Below, piece after piece: positions 58,505 through 59,889 of a DNA stretch of 59,959 nt (the first letter of the stretch is position 1; each line of letters opens with the position of its first letter). The translations under genes and the position numbers were made by a program. The notes below the pieces were generated by a model, which had not been told where the DNA came from, did no database searches, and saw only the letters and a list, made by a program, of their open reading frames with translations. Source of the DNA: Bacteroidales bacterium (GTDB lineage: Bacteria; Bacteroidota; Bacteroidia; Bacteroidales; AUK083); the NCBI GenBank assembly GCA_021158345.1, contig JAGGUV010000005.1:1-59959 (forward strand), given 5' to 3'.

Positions 58505-58549
58505 AAAAGTAACTTTATCCTCCGAAAATGGAGGAATATAGTTACTTTT
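58505..58549. repeat. Long hairpin containing the AAGTAACTTTA repeat
   Basis: AAAAGTAACT (58505-58514) pairs with AGTTACTTTT (58540-58549), and inside it TCCTCC (58518-58523) pairs with GGAGGA (58530-58535) around GAAAAT. It may be a terminator or a recombination-related structure. The same 11-mer recurs at 58580 and 59879. Confidence 0.8.
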
Positions 58550-58579
58550 ATAAAGATAAAATAAATATAAAAGCAATAA

Positions 58580-58590
58580 AAGTAACTTTA
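58580..58590 (+). repeat. Direct repeat AAGTAACTTTA, copy 2
   Basis: Identical to 58507-58517 and 59879-59889. Copies 2 and 3 bracket the two-gene ABC module, a spacing compatible with boundaries of an inserted cassette. Confidence 0.75.
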
Positions 58591-58618
58591 TACAGATGTT
58601 AGTAGCCATAAGAATAAA

Positions 58619-58918
58619 ATGAGAACATTAAGACTAATAGGAACCTTTTATAAATCATATATGATAGCAAGTAGTATCATAACTATTAGTTGTATGAATT
58701 TGATTTATGTGTATGGAATTAGTATAGTTACTGTTCTTTTTTGGTTTAAACTTATTACATTGGGAATAATCGTTTACTATATAAACTCTTATAAAAAAAA
58801 CGAATTTTATTACTACCAAAATTTAGGACTATCAAGACTGTTTTTGTGGATTTCAACAATAATATTTGATGTGTTATTATTTGTGATTTTATTAACTGTA
58901 ATGCTTAAAATCAGATGA
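58619..58918 (+). CDS. Small membrane protein, partner of the accessory ABC ATPase
   Basis: A 99-residue protein with three predicted membrane helices (about residues 14-33, 37-53 and 73-95) and no recognised domain. The stop overlaps the start of the next gene (58915-58918, ATGA), so they are translationally coupled. It is much smaller than a normal ABC permease; it may be an unusual membrane partner. Its position beside the integrase-like fragment and the repeats suggests accessory DNA. Function unknown. Confidence 0.8.
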   Translation: MRTLRLIGTFYKSYMIASSIITISCMNLIYVYGISIVTVLFWFKLITLGIIVYYINSYKKNEFYYYQNLGLSRLFLWISTIIFDVLLFVILLTVMLKIR

Positions 58919-59607
58919 AAAATATACTTGAAATTGATAGTGTTATTTTAGAATTTGGTAATAAAAGAATTTTGCAAAATGTGTACTTGAAAATTGAAAC
59001 TGGTAGTATCACAGGATTATTTGGTCGAAATGGAAGTGGAAAGACTTGTTTAATGAATATCATATATGGAAAACTAATTCCTGCCGAAAAATCAGTAAGA
59101 CTGAATAATAAATATAATCCCAGAAAGCACTTTTCAAAAGAAATATTGACTTATCTACCACAATTCAATTTTATTCCAAAATCCTTGACTATTGAGCGAA
59201 TTTTTAAAGATTATAAAATTGATTTTAGTAATTTTTTAATTTATTTCCCAGAATTTGAAAAATATTACAAATCAAAAATTAAACTATTATCAGGTGGAGA
59301 GCAAAGAATAATAGAGATATATGTAATTCTACTGTCTGATACAAAATTTTGTATGTTGGATGAACCATTTTCACAAGTAATGCCAAAGCATATTGAAACA
59401 ATAAAAAAAATTATTATTAATGAAAAAGACAAAAAAGGAATAATAATTACTGACCACTTGTTTGAACACATAATTGATATTTGCAATGAAATTTATGTTA
59501 TCAATAATGGGACAACTATTTTAATAAAGGACATTGATGAGATTGAAAAACTTGGATATGCAAGAATTACGGCTACTAACAAAAAATATAGTGCATTTGG
59601 CAGATAG
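58915..59607 (+). CDS. Uncharacterised ABC ATPase of an accessory two-gene module
   Basis: A 230-residue ATP-binding protein with complete motifs: Walker A GRNGSGKT (about residues 36-43), signature LLSGGEQRI, Walker B FCMLDEPF, and the H-loop Asp-His in TDHLFEH. The overall pattern, including PQFNFIPKSLTIERIF and PFSQVMPKHIE, recalls an ATPase family that is frequent in Bacteroidota but of unknown function, usually paired with a small membrane protein. No permease of normal size is present. Export, membrane-defence or self-immunity roles are all possible; none is supported by the sequence. The gene overlaps the small membrane protein by 4 bp. Confidence 0.88.
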   Translation: MKNILEIDSVILEFGNKRILQNVYLKIETGSITGLFGRNGSGKTCLMNIIYGKLIPAEKSVRLNNKYNPRKHFSKEILTYLPQFNFIPKSLTIERIFKDYKIDFSNFLIYFPEFEKYYKSKIKLLSGGEQRIIEIYVILLSDTKFCMLDEPFSQVMPKHIETIKKIIINEKDKKGIIITDHLFEHIIDICNEIYVINNGTTILIKDIDEIEKLGYARITATNKKYSAFGR

Positions 59608-59767
59608 TACTAATAATAAAGATGATAGCAATTAATAAACATAGTAGTAAATTGAAAAATTGGAGCGTTGAAATGCCAAACGCACCATATTTAAACCGTT
59701 ATCGAACAATCGTGCTGGTGAATGTATTAAAGATGAAAATTTCAGGGATGGTTAAAAGGAGGTTTCT

Positions 59768-59884
59768 TTGAAAAAAATTAGGTTGCAAAGTCTGCGCTTG
59801 CAGCGTATTAATGTTTCATATTCAATACGTAATAACGTACAAGACTTTGCAAAGTTATTGGATTTTTTTAAGAAAATCAAGTAA
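59768..59884 (+). CDS. Possible 38-residue peptide behind a strong Shine-Dalgarno
   Basis: A TTG start at 59768 follows AAAGGAGG by 5 nt; the only other clear anti-SD match used here belongs to infC. The frame ends with TAA at 59882-59884. The peptide is basic and amphipathic (ending KLLDFFKKIK). It overlaps the inverted repeat, so the coding potential may be an accident of the structure. Confidence 0.3.
   Translation: MKKIRLQSLRLQRINVSYSIRNNVQDFAKLLDFFKKIK
59783..59852. repeat. Inverted-repeat structure, possible MITE or structured RNA
   Basis: TTGCAAAGTCT (59783-59793) is perfectly complementary to AGACTTTGCAA (59842-59852). Within it CGTATT (59804-59809) pairs with AATACG (59824-59829). 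It can fold as a long stem with an internal loop. Its identity is unknown. Confidence 0.75.
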
Positions 59885-59889
59885 CTTTA
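59879..59889 (+). repeat. Direct repeat AAGTAACTTTA, copy 3
   Basis: Identical to copies at 58507 and 58580; lies about 1.3 kb after copy 2, on the far side of the ABC module. Confidence 0.75.

Follow-up and report, generated by a model that had tools for sequence, protein, structure and literature searches.

A two-gene ABC module probably packaged as an integron-type gene cassette in a Bacteroidales genome

The DNA analysed here, referred to as the window, was a stretch of 59,959 nucleotides from a Bacteroidales bacterium, near the end of which two overlapping genes encode a 99-residue membrane protein and an ABC ATPase. The explanation that we consider probable is that this two-gene ABC module is packaged as one integron-type gene cassette and makes a minimal ABC machine, perhaps a protective one. 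The cassette has a definable anatomy and copies in distant hosts, and its two genes are conserved as a pair and carry the signature of purifying selection.

The first gene (58619–58918, + strand) encodes a small three-helix membrane protein of 99 amino acids from an uncharacterised family, and the second (58915–59607, + strand) a 230-residue ABC ATPase (NBD) with an LptB-like fold and a replaced D-loop Asp. The two open reading frames share 4 bp (ATGA), with the small gene first, and are preceded by holA (TIGR01128); both the overlap and the position after holA had been proposed in a sequence-only reading of the window and were recovered here. Comparison with three close cassette copies gave dN/dS values of 0.12–0.31 for the gene pair and 0.13–0.31 for the 99-residue protein gene, and both genes are under purifying selection.

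The complete gene cassette was delimited to 58599–59698 (+ strand, 1,100 bp) by shared homology edges and terminal complementarity, with G|TT at both edges and the true borders at 58598|58599 and 59698|59699. The DNA identity between the window and the loci of a Saprospiraceae MAG (L030) and a Fluviicola MAG (L031) was 88–90% and confined to about 1.1 kb, beginning with (G)TTAGTAGCCATAAG and stopping at AAACCG(TT). The L030 cassette was slightly altered at the 5' end, and the cassette of another Bacteroidetes MAG (L032) had the same start and 84% DNA identity, departing near its own contig end. The 5' end of the window cassette, GTTAGTAGCCATAA (58598–58611, + strand), was the 14-nt inverse complement of the R'' arm TTACGGCTACTAAC (59567–59580, + strand) which lies within the terminal part of the ATPase ORF, with one A/C mismatch at position 11, which gives a T.G wobble on the bottom strand. 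In a circular cassette this 5' end would form the R' arm of an attC-like recombination site spanning 59567–59700 (+ strand) and ending CCG|TT, in whose folded junction the L'' arm ATATAGTGCATTTGGCA (59586–59602, + strand) would pair with the L' arm TGCCAAACGCACCATAT (59674–59690, + strand). When the cassette ends were joined on paper before folding, the bottom strand of the circular junction produced a hairpin whose outer stem had 15 and inner stem 19 base pairs (−21.9 kcal/mol, z −5.2), and the top strand folded more weakly (z −4.1). The complementary ends and the junction hairpin are hallmarks of integron attC sites.

A strict end rule applied to the whole window returned exactly one pair of ends, enclosing both genes, and no such pair in 2000 shuffles of its last 2 kb. 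Across all fetched loci 58 distinct complementary end pairs were collected, 50 of which had the single A-versus-C mismatch at position 11, and recombinase-linked loci contained 38 strict pairs against 0.3 expected. Of the ABC pair's chromosomal loci, twenty were scanned and yielded a single strict match, which was unrelated. An ordinary accessory operon, lying near a decayed integrative element and spread by unspecific horizontal transfer, with complementary ends arising by coincidence, would account for the recombinase fragment found upstream of the pair and for the plain chromosomal locus of the pair in one genus. Such an origin is already strongly contradicted by edges that are base-identical in unrelated hosts, by the recurrent position-11 mismatch and by the excess of end pairs in recombinase-linked loci, and we regard it as highly improbable.

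The integrase-like fragment reported earlier beside the pair was real: the segment 58327–58500 (+ strand) matched a profile built from the N-terminal extensions of cassette recombinases in Bacteroidota with an E-value of 1.1e-4, the best match in the six frames of the window. The cassette lies between this recombinase fragment just upstream and the contig end at 59959 downstream, with no demonstrable array. The assembled genome yielded remnants but no intact recombinase of the cassette type; in contigs C33 (L056:1486-2380) and C104 (L071:1-560) a degraded recombinase C-terminus preceded the same attI-like sequence, with a cassette start behind it. Contig C146 (L049:2150-3094) contained an attC-like site of the window type (ATATAGTGCAT...ACGCACCATATTCAAACCGTT) that differed by a compensatory change and stood ahead of another cassette; adjoining it were an IS91-type transposase and a tyrosine recombinase. 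The latter was set aside as a candidate integrase on account of the adjoining transposase, as judged from sequence.

The strong hairpin AAAAGTAACTTTATCCTCC/GGAGGAATATAGTTACTTTT (58505–58549, no strand assigned) holds two copies of an 11-bp repeat, has no repeat elsewhere in the genome, and is possibly part of an attI-like landing site. The 11-bp repeat itself, AAGTAACTTTA, exists on both sides of the cassette (58505–58590 and 59878–59889), as had been noted; as a border of the mobile unit it was rejected. The cassette edges are elsewhere, two of the copies make up the one hairpin, and the number of five near-copies per window was within the range of shuffled sequences, 6 of 100 of which reached 5.

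Arrays beside an attI-like site and a recombinase were seen in relatives (L034/L069). In Wenyingzhuangia gilva, the homologous pair was one cassette among 11 repeated sites of about 190 nt in 11 kb, and the cassettes of this array followed the end-complementarity rule. On another contig of this genome, a recombinase, an attI-like junction also present in W. heitensis and cassettes bearing the same site formed one co-oriented block. A palindrome with a G|TT junction stood 3' of the recombinase gene, and the same element stood in front of the ABC cassette, in both the L031 and the L032 host. In these two host genomes such palindromes, of 24 bp (with at most 2 mismatches), occurred 7 times in G061 (L158–L164) and 30 times in G062 (L165–L172), and a G|TT cassette start followed at a fixed distance in all 15 inspected copies from these two genomes, which apparently possess many dispersed attI-like landing sites. 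A strict cassette start was located 10–400 nt 3' of the stop codon for 15 of 30 recombinases, fetched by homology alone, versus 25 of 241 other ORFs, a control that is inflated as many of those ORFs are themselves cassette genes.

The recombinases of the relatives were Xer-like proteins of about 380 residues with arrays directly 3', and many had an N-terminal extension of about 90 residues. The spacing between the GKGxKxR and HxLRH motifs was 65–70 residues in comparison with 107 in IntI1, from which it follows that the additional domain of IntI is missing in the Bacteroidota cassette recombinases. Against the XerA-like NCBIfam model NF040815 they scored above or just under the cut-off, and no classical IntI exceeded the TIGR02249 cut-off in the window's own genome or in the hosts. 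In the recombinase tree the placement of IntI1 was unsure (long branch), and the recombinases of the rAID clusters considered below fell among those of Bacteroidota with moderate support only.

In a scan with one genome per species, ATPase relatives with 80–87% amino acid identity were encoded at L030, L031 and L032, with about 60% identity in one Chitinophagales MAG and two Wenyingzhuangia species, and with about 40% in two further genomes; the ATPase gene of these relatives had a small gene directly upstream. In the close cassette copies the 99-residue protein was 81–83% identical to that of the window. Since RadA of the window was only 60–66% identical to RadA of the hosts of these three near-identical cassettes while the ATPase and the small protein reached the values given above, the cassette has moved horizontally. 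A model of the 99-residue protein had 26 matches among 395 Bacteroidota genomes, and because an ATPase gene lay directly downstream in 25 of them, mostly with the 4-bp ATGA overlap, the small protein and the ATPase constitute a real, paired family, the consistent pairing that the sequence-only reading had wished to see checked.

The pair was also found at fixed positions. Nine genomes of one genus had it at one syntenic chromosomal place, and other lineages at other fixed-looking places. Within the order of the window, a single-sequence search of 60 genomes gave no convincing homologue and a profile search found one genome of the order, G413. Carriage of the ATPase on a phage or plasmid was looked for and none was found. 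The pair is accessory in the genome of the window and core elsewhere, and the ABC module is not inherently mobile. The earlier idea of a mobile cassette accordingly stands for the window, where it takes the integron form with shared edges, and fails as a general rule; a fixed locus, which would have counted against the idea if shared by all relatives, was seen in the one genus.

No permease neighboured the pair in the 23 loci examined, including a full-size one of the kind sought after the first description, and no conserved third gene accompanied it across these loci, where only local synteny within genera recurred. No partner gene or clue to the substrate recurred beside the pair. At locus L186 (G155) a short ORF on the opposite strand next to the pair had a double-glycine-like leader, LEGIEVLDKSSQQDVKGG, and resembled a bacteriocin precursor. 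LptB-like ATPases have unlinked permease partners, and a protein of 99 residues with three helices is far under the size of any known ABC permease; the ATPase could accordingly partner an unlinked full-size permease, the 99-residue protein being merely an accessory or regulatory subunit. We consider this arrangement unlikely. Throughout the phylum the ATPase gene is almost always linked to the small gene, and both were transferred together to distant hosts as a self-contained cassette, which suggests that the two genes suffice; no permease neighbour was found either.

The ATPase of the window matched ABC_tran in Pfam (E 2e-21) and contained the Walker A, Q-loop, signature, Walker B and H-loop motifs. 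In the 29 ATPases compared (the window protein and 28 relatives), the ABC-type Walker A, the Q-loop, the Walker B and the H-loop were kept throughout, the LSGG[EQ] signature varied in a few, and the D-loop Asp was replaced by S, M or A in every one; its loss is a family trait. LptB was nearest by NCBIfam profile, by PDB sequence profile and by Foldseek of the AlphaFold2 model (pLDDT 89), the confidence of which dropped at the C-terminal end, where the left arm of the attC-like site supplies the last 14 or so codons.

For the 99-residue protein three long helices and one short helix (residues 60–68), standing between helices 2 and 3 and bearing the conserved motif K-N-E-[FY]-x-[FY]-Y-x-N-x-G-x-S-[KR], were predicted. 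No significant sequence or fold match was obtained in the PDB, and likewise none by Foldseek against the PDB and BFVD, a result that is not evidence for a new fold; the module had been called uncharacterised, and the database searches agreed. The predicted order of transmembrane helix, transmembrane helix, short cytoplasmic helix and transmembrane helix, and an E-x-x-x-x-x-x-G-x-S-[KR] loop resembling the FtsX coupling helix, could reflect a type VII (FtsX/MacB-like) mechanotransmission core cut down to three helices. FtsX homology gained no support from comparison with the FtsX profile (PF02687), which returned a probability of about 0.1%, and the nearest ATPase is LptB and not FtsE, LolD or MacB; we consider such a core unlikely. 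Because neither a significant fold or sequence match nor a match to the FtsX profile was obtained, we infer only that the 99-residue protein may be the transport subunit.

The 57 cassette-region proteins from the loci scanned belonged to resistance-like, restriction, redox and DUF families, and SUKH or Tdi1 was not among the 25 Pfam families listed for them. Array cassettes of Bacteroidota at L129–L148 encoded LinB-like and aminoglycoside-type nucleotidyltransferases as well as an erythromycin-esterase-like protein and an MvaI/BcnI-type endonuclease. Related recombinases are associated with immunity genes in the arrays of recombinase-associated acquired interbacterial defence (rAID) of gut Bacteroidales, whose mechanism of formation has been called open (PMC12247911). 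The ABC pair could in this respect be a toxin–antitoxin-like or immunity pair, in which the three-helix protein, controlled by the ATPase, would either disturb membranes or block a toxin; carriage in a cassette would suit it, such stabilisers being common cassette cargo, and so would the immunity genes of the rAID arrays and the resistance-like and restriction genes of the other scanned cassettes. With the catalytic ABC motifs strongly conserved and the pair upheld at a fixed chromosomal locus free of toxin genes in one genus, we give this function little credence, about as much as an unlinked permease. The suggested linkage to defence or toxin genes was not borne out either, as no steady association was found at the examined loci, and a defence annotation of the ATPase was dismissed as the PADLOC matches were generic ATPase matches.

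The preferred explanation remains a minimal ABC machine carried as a cassette. In the mechanism that we infer, which extends to the activity of recombination, the formation and stoichiometry of the complex and most of all the substrate, the cassette would circularise, its joined ends making the attC-like hairpin, and a tyrosine recombinase of the Bacteroidota type would insert it at G|TT beside attI-like or attC-like sites; the copy near the cassette in the genome of the window would be a remnant of such an enzyme. With ATP, two copies of the LptB-like ATPase would form a dimer and engage the short cytoplasmic helix (residues 60–68) of at least two copies of the 99-residue protein, giving a minimal membrane ABC machine that would not need a separate permease. 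Most likely it would have a protective function, moving or displacing a compound that is membrane-active or lipid-like, although the protective role taken by itself is rather doubtful.

The pair may expose an unstudied two-part membrane machine together with a little-recognised form of gene capture that works without the classical integron integrase. A broader proposal, to which we assign slightly less than an even chance, is that a phylum-wide integron lineage of Bacteroidota exists with Xer-like recombinases devoid of the IntI domain and sometimes with many dispersed attI-like sites, that the rAID of gut bacteria is one specialised form of it, and that its cargoes include an ATPase with a three-helix subunit, which would be the smallest complete membrane ABC machine. 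The end-complementarity rule finds cassettes, gives the recombination point to the base, and makes both Bacteroidota integrons and the formation of rAID testable. It also ties rAID-type clusters to integrons through recombinases that lack a domain regarded as essential for IntI to be active (Messier and Roy 2001, as cited in PMC2426708). With IntegronFinder 2.0, complete integrons in Bacteroidetes proper have been reported from Salinibacter only (PMC9024848). In the literature searched, nothing was found on integrons in Flavobacteriia or on rAID as integrons, although the original description of rAID may have pointed out a similarity to integrons. For work on structure and function, the cassette offers a compact target, a self-contained natural minimal ABC system brought to distant hosts.

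Compared with complete ABC transporters, the ATPase of the window is encoded with a 99-residue three-helix protein and not with a full-size transmembrane domain. LptB is its closest counterpart by profile and fold, but identity in fold alignments was only about 24–28%, no LptF/G partners were near the window-type ATPase, and the D-loop Asp was replaced in all 29 members. The resemblance of the small protein to FtsX/MacB permeases in helix order and coupling loop is superficial; it has three helices, no extracytoplasmic domain and no profile match.

With integron cassettes mobilised by IntI, the window-type cassette shares the capacity, in principle, to be circularised, a folded attC-like site with R''-L''-L'-R' arms, the G|TT crossover, and co-oriented arrays of small genes that adjoin an attI-like site and the gene of a tyrosine recombinase. 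The Bacteroidota system differs in the shorter motif spacing of its recombinases, in the N-terminal extension that many of them have, in an array that follows the 3' end of the recombinase gene and is read in its direction, and in a constant T.G wobble at position 11 when the strand is folded. Because the additional domain of IntI is missing and no match exceeded the TIGR02249 cut-off, the window-type system is integron-like and not a canonical IntI integron. As to rAID, a Parabacteroides recombinase was 34% identical over 92% to that of Wenyingzhuangia and was followed by Tdi1 and SMI1 immunity genes, an arrangement that corresponds to rAID as described (PMC12247911). In the rAID-type cluster of Parabacteroides distasonis (L149, NZ_OY725747.1) the first cassette had 8-nt complementary ends, GTTATAAA/TTTATAAC. 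Both rAID and the relatives of the window cassette have a related recombinase ahead of short, co-oriented genes with motifs between them, whereas the cargo of rAID consists of orphan T6SS immunity genes and that of the window-related arrays is diverse and includes the ABC pair. The comparison points to rAID clusters and window-related arrays being one integron-like system but falls short of proof.
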